Shown: piece by piece, positions 27,461-32,969 of the stretch | How the letters are laid out: every line of letters starts with the position of its first letter | Numbering within the stretch: position 1 is the stretch's first letter | DNA from: an uncultured Bacillota bacterium | GTDB lineage: Bacteria > Bacillota > Clostridia > Oscillospirales > Oscillospiraceae | Reading direction: 5' to 3' | Length of the DNA: 64,000 nucleotides | NCBI GenBank assembly: GCA_947650875.1 | Contig: CANSXE010000001.1 | Span: 1-64,000 of the forward strand | Made by a program: the position numbers and the translations under genes | Notes under the pieces: model-generated | Database searches by the model: none | What the model saw: only the letters and a program-made list of their open reading frames with translations | Told to the model about the DNA's origin: nothing

Positions 27461-29113
27461 CTAAAAAATCAATCCATATTTTCGAATTCGGTATTGCAGG
27501 CTCTGGCGGAGGATGCCCAGGGTCTGGGCGGTGCGGGAGATGTTGTAGCCGCAGTGGTCCAGGGCCTGGGCGATGACCTGCTTCTCATAGCCGTCCATAA
27601 GCCCTTGCAGGGTTTCCAGGGAAAAGTCGATGGCCGGGAGGGGGGCAGCGGGCTCGCTGCGGTGTTTCAGCAGGTAGGGGGGCAGGTGGCGCACCTCCAT
27701 CACCTGGGAGTCGGTAACATTCTGGGCATAGTCCAGCACATGGAACAGCTCCCGCACGTTGCCCGGCCAGTGGTAGGCCCGCAGGACGGCGAGGACCTCC
27801 GGGTCAAGCCGGGTAACGGCGTGGACAAACTGGTAGGCGGTGGCCTCCAGGTGGTAGCGGATCAGCTCCTCCAGGTCCTCCAGGTGCTCCCGGAGTGGGG
27901 GGAGTTCAAGCATCACGGTGGACAGCCGATAGAACAGGTCGCGACGGAAGGTGTTTTCCGCCACCGCCTTGAAGGGGTCCTCGTTGCAGGAGGAGATCAC
28001 CCGCACATCCAGCCGAATATCCTGACTGCCCCCCACCCGGCGGAAGGTCTTTTCCTGGAGGACCCGCAGAATCTTGGACTGCATGGCCAGGCTCATGGAG
28101 TTGAGCTCGTCCAGGAACAGGGTGCCCCCGGCGGCCTCCTCCAGGTAGCCCGCCTTGTCCTCGCTGCCGGTGAAGCTGCCCTTTCTGGTGCCGAAGAGAA
28201 GGCTCTCGATGAGGGTCTCCGGGACGGCGGCGCAGTTGATGGCCAGAAACTTCCCGCTCCGGCGGCGGCTGGAGCGGTGGATGCTCTGGGCAAAGATCTC
28301 CTTGCCCGTTCCCGTCTCCCCCACCAGGAGGATGGGGCTGTCCTGAGGGGCCACCCGCCGGGCCAGCTCCACCGCCGAACGCAGTTTGGGACAGCTGCCG
28401 ATCACATTGTCGAAGGTGTAGCCCGAAAAGCTGATTTTTGGCGGCTTGTTCTGGAAGGAGCTGAGGGCTCGGCGGGTGTCCTCCAGCTTTTTGATGTTTT
28501 TCTCCACAAGCTCCGCCGTCTGCTCAAAGACCACCGCCCCCAGCAGCTCCCCCTCCCGGAAGATGGGGTAGGAGGTGTTGGCCGAAGCGATGGGGGCGGT
28601 GCTGAAGTCATTGGCCCGGAAGCTGTCCACCCGGTCGATCACCGGGGCCTGGGTCTGGAGGGCGGTCATGGTGGTGCTGATGGTCTCGTCCAGGTTGTAC
28701 AGGTCCAGCAGGTGCCGCCCCTCTACGCTCACCCCGCTGGGAATGCGGGAGATGCCCCGGCTGGCCCGGTTGAAGTAGACCGCGCAGGCGTTTTTGTCAT
28801 AAATCTGCACCCCGTCGGTGACCTGGTCCAGGGCCCGGGCCAGGAGATAGGGCCGGTTGTCCTCCCGCTTGAGCAGCAGCCAGCGCCCGCCCTCGGGGGC
28901 GGGGAGGAGCTGAAAATGAAAGGTGTTCTCCTCCCAGATCAGTTCCCCGCTGTCCCCCTCCCGGGGCAGGTCAAAGGCGTCCCGGGCCGGCCGCCGGGCG
29001 GCGGCCCAGCTCTCAAAGAGGTCCCGGTACAGGTCCTCCGCTTCCCGGCTGCCCCAGGCCACCCCACAGAAGCAGTCTGAGGGGTCCAGCGTAAACAGAA
29101 TGTCATAGAGCAT
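27461..29113 (-). CDS. Sigma-54 enhancer-binding regulator (PAS-AAA-Fis)
   Basis: 550 residues. The N-terminal 210 residues contain a PAS-like sensor (ALDQVTDGVQIYDKNACAVYFN) of the RocR/PrdR type. The AAA+ module has Walker A GETGTGKE near residue 263, a sigma-54 contact loop that reads GSFTGS instead of GAFTGA, Walker B GGTLFLDELN, and the EBP end YHWPGNVRELFHVLDYA. A Fis-type HTH closes the protein (YNISRTAQTLGILRQSLQYRI). It is divergent to a BCCT-lyase operon that has a -24/-12 promoter and a dyad upstream, so it probably activates that operon in response to a small molecule. Confidence 0.93.
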   Translation of the reverse strand: MLYDILFTLDPSDCFCGVAWGSREAEDLYRDLFESWAAARRPARDAFDLPREGDSGELIWEENTFHFQLLPAPEGGRWLLLKREDNRPYLLARALDQVTDGVQIYDKNACAVYFNRASRGISRIPSGVSVEGRHLLDLYNLDETISTTMTALQTQAPVIDRVDSFRANDFSTAPIASANTSYPIFREGELLGAVVFEQTAELVEKNIKKLEDTRRALSSFQNKPPKISFSGYTFDNVIGSCPKLRSAVELARRVAPQDSPILLVGETGTGKEIFAQSIHRSSRRRSGKFLAINCAAVPETLIESLLFGTRKGSFTGSEDKAGYLEEAAGGTLFLDELNSMSLAMQSKILRVLQEKTFRRVGGSQDIRLDVRVISSCNEDPFKAVAENTFRRDLFYRLSTVMLELPPLREHLEDLEELIRYHLEATAYQFVHAVTRLDPEVLAVLRAYHWPGNVRELFHVLDYAQNVTDSQVMEVRHLPPYLLKHRSEPAAPLPAIDFSLETLQGLMDGYEKQVIAQALDHCGYNISRTAQTLGILRQSLQYRIRKYGLIF

Positions 29114-29493: not shown

Positions 29494-29512
29494 TTGGCCC
29501 GGCAGTTGCTTT
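29494..29512 (+). promoter_or_regulatory. Sigma-54 (-24/-12) promoter
   Basis: TTGGCCCGGCAGTTGCTTT matches TGGCACG-N4-TTGCW well: invariant GG (29496-29497), exactly 10 bases, invariant GC (29508-29509), followed by a T-rich edge. It is 64 bp before the BCCT start and opposite an enhancer-binding protein gene. Confidence 0.82.
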
Positions 29513-29575: not shown

Positions 29576-31153
29576 ATGAAACATGAGAACAAGCCGATCC
29601 GCTGGGATGTATTCATCCCCTGCTTTGTGGTCATCGGCGGCGCGGCCCTGCTGGGCATCGTCAACAACAGCTGGCTGACCAGCGTGACCTACACCATGTT
29701 CGACTGGTCGCTGAGCACCTTTGGCTGGCTGTACCAGATCGTGGCCATGGTCACCCTGCTGCTGGCCGCCCTGCTGCTGTTCACCAAGGTGGGCAAGATT
29801 CGCTTCGGCGGCCCGGAGGCCAAGGCCAAGCACTCCTTTGGCTCCTGGTTCGCCATGACCCTCACCGGCGGCATCGCCACCGGCCTGATTACCTACGGCG
29901 TCAATGAGGTGCTCATCTACTACGGCAACATCTACGGCGAGCTGGACGGCTACGGCATCACCCCTCTGACCCAGGAGGCGGAGCTGTTCGCCATGGGCCG
30001 CTGCTTCTATAACTGGACCTTCATCCCCTACGCCATGTACGCCCTGTCCGGCGTGCTCATCGCCTATATGTATTTCAACCGCAAAAAACAACTCTCTGTA
30101 GCGGCCTCCCTCACCCCCATCTTTGGGGAGAAGGTGACCCAGGGCATCTGGGTGGTGCTGGTGGACGTGCTGTCCGTACTGGCCATCGCCCTGGGCCTGG
30201 CCTCCTCTCTGGGCGCCGGTCTGGCCCTCATCGGCTCCGGTCTCTACTCCGCCTACGGCGTGGAGCAGGGCCCCATCGTGTGGATGGCCCTCACCGCCAT
30301 TATCACTATCACCTTTACCATCGCCTCGGTCACCGGCATCGACAAGGGCATCAAGTGGCTGGCCGGCCTGACCTCCAAAATCTTCTATGTGCTGCTTATC
30401 CTGCTGTTTGTAATCGGTCCCACCATCTACATCCTGAATATGGCCAATGTGGGCTTGGGCTACTGGCTGGACCGGTTCTGGATGTGGGGCTTCGACCCCT
30501 ACACCGTGGGCGGCTCCGCCCTGGTCACCTGGTGGACCATGTATGACTGGGCCATCTGGATCGCCTACGCCCCCCTGATGGGCATTTTCTTCGCCATCAT
30601 CGCCTACGGCCGCACCGTGCGCCAGTTCCTCATCGTCAACTGGATTCTGCCCGCCTCCTTCGGCTTTGTGTGGTTCTCCGTGTGGGGCTCCACCGCCCTG
30701 GAGTGGCAAAAGAGCGGCAGCGCCGACATCATCTCCGCCATTCAGGCGGGCGGAGCCACCACCGGCCTGTGGGAGTTCCTCAAGAACGTCCCCCTGGGCA
30801 TGATTATCATTCCCGTGATTATCCTGGCCCTGATTGCCGCCTTCTCCACCACGGCGGACACCATGTCCACCACCATCGCCGCCCTGTGCACCAGCGGAGC
30901 CCGCCACGACGAGGAGCCCGCCATCTGGCAGAAAATCGTCTGGGGCGTGTCCATCGGCGTGATCGCCTGCGTCATGGTGGCCTTTGGCGGCGGCGCCCAG
31001 GGCGTGGACGGCGTGAAGTACCTGGCGGCCTGCGGCGGCTTTGTGGTGCTGGTGGTGTTCATCTTCCAGGTGGCGGCCGCCTTCAAGGTGTTCTTCTTCG
31101 ATCCCGAGACCAAGAAGGATATTGTGGACAGTGTGGACCAGATTGAAGCATAA
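29576..31153 (+). CDS. BCCT family betaine/carnitine/choline-type transporter
   Basis: 525 residues with about 12 membrane segments. The BCCT signature is present: WWTMYDWAIWIAYAPLMG near residue 320, including the aromatic residues that cage quaternary ammonium groups. GLASSLGAGLALIG near residue 205 matches the sodium/substrate-site helix. It starts at ATG 29576 after AGAGAA. A sigma-54 promoter drives it and the MIO-less lyase follows after 15 bases. BCCT carriers take up trimethylammonium compounds, which matches a lyase that would release trimethylamine. Substrate identity (ergothioneine or another betaine) is inference. Confidence 0.92.
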   Translation: MKHENKPIRWDVFIPCFVVIGGAALLGIVNNSWLTSVTYTMFDWSLSTFGWLYQIVAMVTLLLAALLLFTKVGKIRFGGPEAKAKHSFGSWFAMTLTGGIATGLITYGVNEVLIYYGNIYGELDGYGITPLTQEAELFAMGRCFYNWTFIPYAMYALSGVLIAYMYFNRKKQLSVAASLTPIFGEKVTQGIWVVLVDVLSVLAIALGLASSLGAGLALIGSGLYSAYGVEQGPIVWMALTAIITITFTIASVTGIDKGIKWLAGLTSKIFYVLLILLFVIGPTIYILNMANVGLGYWLDRFWMWGFDPYTVGGSALVTWWTMYDWAIWIAYAPLMGIFFAIIAYGRTVRQFLIVNWILPASFGFVWFSVWGSTALEWQKSGSADIISAIQAGGATTGLWEFLKNVPLGMIIIPVIILALIAAFSTTADTMSTTIAALCTSGARHDEEPAIWQKIVWGVSIGVIACVMVAFGGGAQGVDGVKYLAACGGFVVLVVFIFQVAAAFKVFFFDPETKKDIVDSVDQIEA

Positions 31154-31168: not shown

Positions 31169-32701
31169 ATGGAAGAGATGAAAACGCTTGTACTGGGCGA
31201 GCCCATCACCCTGGAGGACTTCGTCTCCGTGGCCCGGTTCGGGCGGAAGGTGGCATTTTCCCCGGAATACATAGCCCGTGTAAACCGCTCCCGGGCCCTG
31301 GTGGAGCAGTGGGTGGAGGAGGAGCGGGTGATGTACGGCGTCACCACCGGCTTCGGGGCGCTGTGTACCAAGGCCATCGACAAGGAGGCCACCGCCCAGC
31401 TTCAGGAGAACATCATCCTGTCCCACTCCGTCTCGGTGGGCGAGCCCCTGAGCGTGGAGCGGGTGCGGGGCATTATGCTCATGGTGCTGCAAAACATCGG
31501 CCAGGGCTACAGCGGCGTGCGGATGTGTGTGCTGGAAAAGTACCGGGACTTCCTCAACGCCGGCCTGACCCCCTACGCCCCCGGGGACGGCAGCGTGGGC
31601 TACCTCTCCCCCGAGGCCCACATGGCCCTGGTGCTGCTGGGCCGCGGTAAGGCCTACTACCAGGGTGAGCTGCTGGAAGGCGGGGAAGCCCTGAAACGGG
31701 CCGGGCTGGAGCCCATGGTTCTCTCCTCCAAGGAGGGGCTGGCCCTGGTGTCGGGCACCACCTCCGCCACCGCCATGGCCGCCCTGGCCCTCTATGACAT
31801 GCTCAACGCCGCCAAGTCCGCCGACATCGTGGGGGCCATGTCTCTGGAGGCCATGAAGGGGGTCATCAACGCCTTCGACCCCCGGGTGATGGCTGTCCGG
31901 CCCCACCCCGACCAGCTCAACGCCTCGGAGAATGTCCGCCGGATACTGAAGGGCTCGGGCATCATGGAGAAATACCGGGGCAGCCGGGTGCAGGACGCCC
32001 TGTCCCTGCGGTGCATCCCCCAGCTCCACGGCGCGGCCCGGAAGACCCTGGAGGACGCGAAAAAGACCATCGAGATCGAGATGAACTCCTGCTGTGACAA
32101 CCCCATTATCTGGCCCGAGACGGGCAACGAGGACGTGATTTCCGCCTGCAACGCCGATTCCGCCTATGTGGGCATGGAGATGGACAGCGCCTGTATCGCC
32201 GCCGTGGGGCTGGCCAAGATGTCCGAGCGGCGGAACAACCGCATCGTGGACGGCTCCCTGTCGGGCTACCCCTACTTCTGCATCAAAAACCCGGGGCTGA
32301 ACTCCGGGCTGATGATCCCCCAGTACGTCCAGGCCGGTCTCCTCAACGAGATGCGGATGCTGGCCACCCCCTCCACCATCGACAACACCCCCACCTGCGG
32401 CAACCAGGAGGACTATGTGGCCATGGGGTACAACGCCTGCAAGAAGGCAGGCCCCATGGCGGAGAAGCTGGAGTACATGCTGGCCATCGAGCTGCTCAGC
32501 GTGTATGAGGTGCAGCAGTTTGTGGACCCGGACGTGGCCCGCGCCCCTGCCACAGCGGCGGTGCTGGCCGAGATTGGCAGGACGGTGCCGGTGATGGAGA
32601 AGGACATGTTCCTCCACCCCTACATCGAGTATTTGAAGGACTTTATCCACTCGGGCGGACTGATCCGGGTGGCCGAACAGGTGACAGGAGCGCTGAGCTG
32701 A
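31169..32701 (+). CDS. HAL/PAL-fold lyase lacking the MIO motif; candidate ergothionase
   Basis: 510 residues, the size of histidine ammonia-lyase. Family landmarks remain: MYGVTTGFGAL (catalytic Tyr56), KEGLALVSGTT at about 188-198, VQDALSLRC at 274-282, NQEDYVAMG in the C-terminal half. But the MIO-forming Ala-Ser-Gly is gone: the canonical GSVGASGDLAPLAH is here GSVGYLSPEAH (141-151), shorter and without ASG. The usual NGT is SGT and the QDPYS tyrosine is Leu. MIO loss is known for ergothionase, which removes trimethylamine from ergothioneine without an electrophilic cofactor. A BCCT carrier for betaines is directly upstream. Histidine ammonia-lyase activity is therefore unlikely; ergothionase or a similar betaine lyase is the best reading. 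Confidence 0.72.
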   Translation: MEEMKTLVLGEPITLEDFVSVARFGRKVAFSPEYIARVNRSRALVEQWVEEERVMYGVTTGFGALCTKAIDKEATAQLQENIILSHSVSVGEPLSVERVRGIMLMVLQNIGQGYSGVRMCVLEKYRDFLNAGLTPYAPGDGSVGYLSPEAHMALVLLGRGKAYYQGELLEGGEALKRAGLEPMVLSSKEGLALVSGTTSATAMAALALYDMLNAAKSADIVGAMSLEAMKGVINAFDPRVMAVRPHPDQLNASENVRRILKGSGIMEKYRGSRVQDALSLRCIPQLHGAARKTLEDAKKTIEIEMNSCCDNPIIWPETGNEDVISACNADSAYVGMEMDSACIAAVGLAKMSERRNNRIVDGSLSGYPYFCIKNPGLNSGLMIPQYVQAGLLNEMRMLATPSTIDNTPTCGNQEDYVAMGYNACKKAGPMAEKLEYMLAIELLSVYEVQQFVDPDVARAPATAAVLAEIGRTVPVMEKDMFLHPYIEYLKDFIHSGGLIRVAEQVTGALS

Positions 32702-32702
32702 T

Positions 32703-32969
32703 ATGAAAAAAGAAGTTGTCCGCGTGGAGATGGACCTGAAAAAGATTTTCCTCACCCCTCCCAACACCCGCCGGGAGCAGATCACCCTGCTGGTGATGAT
32801 GGTGGTCCTCTTTATCATGTTCTTCGGCCCCATCTGCTTCACCGAAATCCATCCGGTGAAGGCCATCCTCCTCTCCTGCCTGCCCGCCCTGTCGGTCTCC
32901 TGGGGGTGGATCGTTCTGCTGCGGTCTCTGTTCCGCAAATCGGAGTTCTGCCAGCAGGTAAAAGATTGA
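32703..32969 (+). CDS. Small membrane protein of the BCCT-lyase operon
   Basis: 88 residues, ATG one base after the lyase stop, so the genes are translationally linked. Two membrane segments lie at about 27-46 and 53-75 with a basic N-terminus and C-terminus. No recognised family. It could be an accessory subunit of the carrier or an assembly factor. It ends before a strong terminator. Confidence 0.7.
   Translation: MKKEVVRVEMDLKKIFLTPPNTRREQITLLVMMVVLFIMFFGPICFTEIHPVKAILLSCLPALSVSWGWIVLLRSLFRKSEFCQQVKD

Follow-up and report, generated by a model that had tools for sequence, protein, structure and literature searches.

In the family of histidine ammonia-lyase (HAL, HutH), the cofactor MIO, which is formed from an Ala-Ser-Gly (ASG) motif, makes the amine a better leaving group. 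Replacing the MIO serine with alanine in R. xylanophilus PAL removed MIO and practically all activity (PMC3903478). Ergothionase (ergothioneine trimethylamine-lyase) lacks MIO (PMC13405746). It has the same ammonia-lyase fold, its product requires thiourocanate hydratase, not urocanase, and among MIO-less members the T. denticola enzyme (6S7J/6S7Q) was the only one for which we found a solved structure. In gut bacteria, quaternary amines also give rise to trimethylamine through choline trimethylamine-lyase CutC and the carnitine and gamma-butyrobetaine pathways. These routes rely on glycyl-radical, oxygenase, or acyl-CoA chemistry and on folds unrelated to the ammonia-lyases. The gamma-butyrobetaine route to trimethylamine has been described (PMC8364193).

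Here, we analyzed a lyase encoded in a 64,000-nucleotide stretch of DNA (the window) from an uncultured Bacillota bacterium of the Oscillospiraceae (GCA_947650875.1, contig CANSXE010000001.1). Its nearest described relative by both sequence and fold is HutH (P. putida HAL, 1B8F; about 35% identity; TM 0.93; E 1e-87), with which it has in common the imidazole-binding His and Glu (window H86 and E414) and the downstream pathway. The window protein differs from HAL by deletion of the ASG motif and by N195S, Y280L, F329A, and H330D, and its clade, unlike HAL, is paired with a betaine transporter and coexists with true HAL. The features of the locus are as follows.

27461..29113, minus strand: sigma-54-dependent activator (AAA+ Sigma54_activat domain plus Fis HTH; Pfam, NCBIfam), divergent from the operon
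29495..29510, plus strand: sigma-54 promoter-like -24/-12 element TGGCCCGGCAGTTGCT, one mismatch to TGGCAYRNNNNTTGCW, about 66 bp before the start codon of the transporter gene
29576..31153, plus strand: BCCT-family (betaine/carnitine/choline) transporter (Pfam BCCT, 360 bits), 15 bp upstream of the lyase gene
31169..32701, plus strand: intact lyase ORF of 510 amino acids, ammonia-lyase fold, MIO-less GSVGYL clade, proposed hercynine trimethylamine-lyase
31589..31621, plus strand: loop G141-H151, GSVGYLSPEAH (aligned with 1B8F, 7TQR, and 6S7J)
32703..32969, plus strand: small hydrophobic protein of 88 amino acids, starting 1 bp past the lyase stop codon

The lyase lacks the MIO-forming motif

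The lyase is a member of PF00221 (Lyase_aromatic; 544 bits in a Pfam search). The first-pass annotation had read GSVGYLSPEAH at residues 141 to 151 and taken the MIO-forming residues to be missing from a loop shortened by three residues. Both observations hold: the loop lies inside the intact ORF, and in the alignment with 1B8F, A142-S143-G144-D145 of HAL are replaced by a single tyrosine, with a net loss of three residues (G141-S-V-G, Y145, the three-residue gap, and then L-S-P-E-A-H). Since the serine and its neighbors are absent, MIO cannot form in the aligned protein (compare the S-to-A mutant of PAL in PMC3903478). Relative to 1B8F, the window protein also has N195 changed to S195, Y280 to L278, P279 to A277, F329 to Ala, and H330 to Asp, and it keeps Y53 (window Y56), H83 (window H86), Q277, R283, and Q413-E414-D415. 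The retention of the catalytic tyrosine and the QED segment had been recognized at first reading. The changes then noted around the cofactor site were correct for NGT to SGT (N195S) and for Y280L, whereas P279A is present but uninformative, because alanine is frequent at this position among true HALs (13 of 18).

An AlphaFold2 model of the lyase (input alignment of the clade and relatives) reached a pLDDT of 93.7 and a pTM of 0.93. With this model, Foldseek placed HAL 1B8F at the top (TM 0.93) and ergothionase 6S7J a close second (TM 0.89), so the overall fold is predicted to be left intact by the loop deletion.

The protein fell below both curated HAL cutoffs (TIGR01225, 498.4 bits versus 539.15; PRK09367, 518.1 bits versus 524), and canonical ASG-bearing HALs were encoded elsewhere in most of 16 lyase-carrying genomes; two Bacilli have an ordinary HutH-HutU pair in addition to a BCCT-lyase-HutU operon. 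The lyase is therefore very probably not HAL, and the coexistence of canonical HALs indicates that it is not the histidase of these genomes. The suspicion that automated annotation would misname it was well founded: deposited records of its relatives read "histidine ammonia-lyase" or "aromatic amino acid ammonia-lyase."

The MIO site also varies in other proteins of the family. A second PF00221 protein in the window's genome (L001; G000:C28:2224-3681; 538 amino acids) has ACG in place of ASG (GSVGACGDLAPMAH), so that a cysteine would form MIO; its gene directly precedes molybdenum-hydroxylase (Xdh-type) genes. SSG replaces ASG in the HAL-like proteins L107, L117, L118, L122, and L137.

The GSVGYL clade and the phylogeny of MIO loss

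Relatives were gathered by a scan with one genome per species, which gave 80 loci. All 78 nonredundant clade proteins in the tree (77 plus that of the window) carried GSVGY-L/I with the identical gap, and the GSVGYL loop was present without exception in the 63 rows of the main-clade alignment. The hosts comprised Bacillota, Pseudomonadota (including Acinetobacter), Fusobacteriota, Spirochaetota, and one deltaproteobacterium, many of them isolates. Because the deletion is conserved across the clade in independent assemblies from five phyla, we regard it as real and discard the explanation that a sequencing error had hidden the ASG. The distribution is patchy: a DNA pattern for the conserved loop, which misses variants, was found in 4 of 246 Clostridia and in 1 of 276 Acinetobacter-class genomes, query genomes included.

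Within the main clade (HAL numbering), Y53, Q277, R283, and E414 were invariant (63/63), and H83 was kept in 61 of 63 proteins. New invariant residues were Y145, E149, and D330. N195 was changed to Ser in 59 of 63 proteins, Y280 to Leu in 62, and H330 to Asp in all 63. At the same three positions, the ergothionase rows had Ser (6/8), Leu (8/8), and Glu (8/8), versus Asn, Tyr, and His in 18 of 18 HAL rows. Ergothionase likewise keeps Y53, H83, R283, and E414. In the aligned sequences, the two MIO-less groups have thus changed the same active-site positions despite being separate clades. Loss of the cofactor frees the residues that served it, and the acid at 330 may provide a holding site for a cationic leaving group.

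The alignment with ergothionase and HAL proposed at first pass confirmed the loss of MIO; ergothionase itself, named there for comparison, proved to be a different clade from that of the protein. The two share about 27% identity (E 5e-52 to 6S7J), and their loops differ, with SSIGE-GDITTLSH in ergothionase (one residue short) and GSVGY---LSPEAH in the window lyase. Ergothionase has F329 and a GWNKDK segment that is absent from the GSVGYL clade. Proteins whose loop reads RGSIGEGDITTLSHI are the ones truly related to 6S7J (727 bits) and make up a clade of their own. Membership in the ergothionase group was ruled out by tree, loop, and neighbors.

SH-aLRT support was 100 for the ergothionase clade and 98 for the GSVGYL clade, and in a careful tree that omitted the loop and key columns, support was 100/100 and 97/96, respectively. 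The GSVGYL clade branched beside MIO-bearing HALs. With the loop and key columns omitted, two MIO losses were favored by 8.2 log units over a single loss, for which the AU test gave a P value of 0.098 (short of formal rejection), and the MIO proteins were split in every bootstrap tree. The trees therefore favor two separate losses of MIO within the ammonia-lyase fold.

Some loci contained adjacent or nearby GSVGYL paralogues with differing active sites (L017, L018, L020, L023, L025, L027, L057, and L058), some of which retain N195 or Y280. Judging from these differences, the paralogues may be betaine lyases that act on different substrates, and the divergent ones need either other substrates or a loss of function. 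Position H83 was occupied by Cys in L069 and L080, both with HutU nearby, and by Asp in L057. Imidazole recognition is therefore not uniform across the clade, and these three paralogues probably differ in substrate.

A BCCT transporter operon with a sigma-54 activator

The arrangement in the window is that of a sigma-54-controlled operon, as read from the DNA, in which the transporter, the lyase, and the small protein are served by a dedicated divergent activator. The best phmmer matches of the transporter were a trimethylamine transporter (8ZW8) and BetP, and it scored well under the family cutoffs for betaine, choline, and carnitine BCCTs. At the aromatic-box positions of BetP (W189, W194, Y197, W374, and W377), the window transporter has W, Y, Y, W, and Y (read by eye from the phmmer alignment), so that all five positions of this box for trimethylammonium binding are aromatic. 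The sigma-54 element alone was not above chance within the window; among 57 homologous loci, however, 20 have a strict element upstream of the transporter gene, where 0.04 would be expected. The 88-amino-acid protein had no Pfam or NCBIfam match. Of 79 loci, 31 encode a homologue, which in about 24 cases lies within 30 bp of the lyase gene, and the conserved protein is possibly an accessory of the transporter.

Neighboring genes and the Hut pathway

We used homology searches to count the neighbors in 79 loci. The most frequent partner was a BCCT transporter (60 loci, usually directly upstream of the lyase), followed by the sigma-54 activator (48), the small membrane protein (31), HutU (17), HutI (16), ergothionase (7), and HAL (5). 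Hut genes or HAL were found within 22 of the 79 loci, and about 57 showed no hut gene. Gene orders included BCCT-lyase-HutU-HutI-HutG in Bacilli (Bacillaceae), HutU-HutI-HutG-Gdh-lyase-BCCT in Acinetobacter, and SSS transporter-lyase-HutU-HutI-FTCD in Sporomusa; urocanase, HutI, and HutG/FTCD genes adjoined the lyase in Lachnospiraceae too. We tested 12 adjacent HutU proteins (10 from clade loci, that of L073, and that of a Klebsiella plasmid), and all 12 scored above the hutU cutoff and below both thiourocanate-hydratase cutoffs. Since the partners are true urocanases, the product is expected to be urocanate rather than thiourocanate.

The association extended to genomes in which the genes are apart. 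Urocanase was present in 14 of 15 lyase genomes chosen from loci without visible hut genes, versus 31 of 246 sampled Clostridia; for the 13 Bacillota among the 15, 12 of which have it, the Fisher P value was 1e-9 (uncorrected for relatedness). No hut gene lies next to the window lyase, and a search of the genome assembly to which the window belongs (2.1 Mb, 77% complete) gave no urocanase, although the genomes of the close relatives L006, L012, and L015 contain it. The gene could lie in the part of the genome that the assembly lacks, or the urocanate could be handed on. Judging from these gene contexts, the enzyme most likely feeds the Hut pathway with urocanate from a nonhistidine substrate imported by the betaine transporter.

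An ergothionase-type gene stood beside the GSVGYL lyase in 7 of 79 loci, which implies a substrate different from that of ergothionase. Xdh-type molybdenum-hydroxylase genes accompanied the lyase in seven loci (L024, L042, L043, L045, L061, L078, and L079), six of which had an ergothionase-type gene as well.

Klebsiella plasmids carry a GSVGYL lyase

A plasmid-borne "aromatic amino acid ammonia-lyase" of Klebsiella has the same loop (GSVGYLIATAH, together with QDALSLRC). It is surrounded by HutU, HutC, HutD, and HutF and directly preceded by an ABC system (ProV-like ATPase plus OpuAC binding protein) instead of a BCCT transporter. A betaine transporter unrelated to BCCT, coupled to the same pathway after the lyase, suggests a substrate of the same class. 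High-identity copies of this lyase occur on at least 164 plasmids, almost all of them from Klebsiella or Raoultella, and in 2 of 5,426 E. coli genomes. The plasmid lyase fell inside the GSVGYL clade with 94% support, on a long branch that makes its placement less certain. L135 (NZ_CP135070.1) and many other Klebsiella plasmids, some of them conjugative, carry an additional set of hut genes that includes a GSVGYL lyase along with an ABC transporter for betaines. Type I-E* CRISPR spacers have been reported to match chromosomal hutT without a PAM (PMC12188710); a permease gene adjoins hutU on the Klebsiella plasmids and is of possible relevance to such spacers.

Proposed reaction and alternatives

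The window lyase is probably an MIO-independent hercynine trimethylamine-lyase that would yield urocanate and trimethylamine. What this proposal says of substrate, product, mechanism, and transport we infer from the clade, the missing MIO motif, the operon, the conserved residues, and the neighbors, all of which are features of the sequences. The BCCT transporter would import hercynine (N-alpha,N-alpha,N-alpha-trimethyl-L-histidine, histidine betaine), the imidazole of which would be held by H86 and E414 (H83 and E414 in HAL) while the loop tyrosine Y56 (Y53 in HAL) would take the C-beta proton. An electrophilic MIO would not be required, because trimethylamine, unlike ammonia, departs already quaternized, as ergothionase shows. 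The bulky N(CH3)3+ group may fit into space freed by the short loop and by N195S and Y280L, near the invariant acids D330 and perhaps E149. Of the products, trimethylamine and trans-urocanate, the latter would go to urocanase, HutI, and HutG/FTCD or be passed on. A betaine transporter, a urocanate pathway, and histidine-type binding residues together make hercynine the simplest substrate, and a quaternary compound is what both the BCCT partner (60 of 79 loci) and the OpuAC ABC system of the Klebsiella plasmids suggest.

The foremost alternative, which we still consider unlikely, is a trimethylamine-lyase for another amino acid betaine or a ring-modified hercynine (N-tau-methylhercynine, S-methylergothioneine, or, in paralogue subclades, an aromatic betaine). 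BCCT and OpuAC transporters would suit any betaine, the occurrence of tandem paralogues in single loci (L017, L018, L020, L057, and L058) implies several substrates, and H83 is replaced in L057, L069, and L080; the main clade, however, keeps H83 in 61 of 63 proteins and E414 in all 63, and canonical hut genes follow directly after the lyase. Next in probability, and also doubtful, is a second, independently evolved ergothionase that converts ergothioneine to thiourocanate and trimethylamine. It would account for the common fold, the absence of MIO, and the common S195, L278, and acid at 330, and the presence of ergothionase-type genes in these clusters places such chemistry in the neighborhood. 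Against it, the neighboring HutU proteins score as true urocanases under both thiourocanate-hydratase cutoffs, HutI and HutG/FTCD carry on from urocanate, a genuine ergothionase is already present in seven clusters, and GWNKDK is not shared.

That the protein is an MIO-free histidase replacing HAL in hut operons is very improbable. Although the Bacilli hut operon holds the lyase without an adjacent HutH and the imidazole-binding residues are retained, MIO is required for ammonia elimination in this fold (PMC3903478), canonical HALs occur elsewhere in most such genomes, and the lyase is consistently partnered by a betaine transporter. Least probable of all is a dead pseudoenzyme or sensor protein: loss of the cofactor by itself could mean loss of function, but Y53, Q277, R283, and E414 are invariant (63/63) across several phyla, Y145, E149, and D330 have become invariant, and the operon is conserved.

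Implications

We found no description of a hercynine lyase or of such an MIO-less enzyme in the open-access literature. By sequence, the clade appears to be a variant of the MIO-less trimethylamine-lyases that is misannotated in deposited records as HAL or under a generic aromatic-lyase name. In a broader scenario, to which we give roughly even odds, MIO was lost twice, each time after a shift to a trimethylated histidine (ergothioneine in ergothionase and hercynine in the GSVGYL clade), and a pathway from hercynine to urocanate and trimethylamine would operate in gut Clostridia, Acinetobacter, Bacilli, and more than 160 Klebsiella-type plasmids, constituting a new route to trimethylamine in the gut.

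Trimethylamine from gut bacteria feeds TMAO, a cardiovascular risk marker. Which genes make trimethylamine from ergothioneine-related compounds in the diet is under debate. A BLAST-based study from 2026 found such lyases to be rare and, by its own account, left out divergent homologues (PMC13405746); one such blind spot would be a further MIO-less clade, greater in size, whose members are filed under histidine or aromatic amino acid ammonia-lyase. Because the two MIO-less clades have common active-site changes, they offer a natural experiment on the dispensability of MIO. If the proposal is true, the GSVGYL lyases would add an overlooked source to the bacterial supply of trimethylamine, the amine linked to heart disease.
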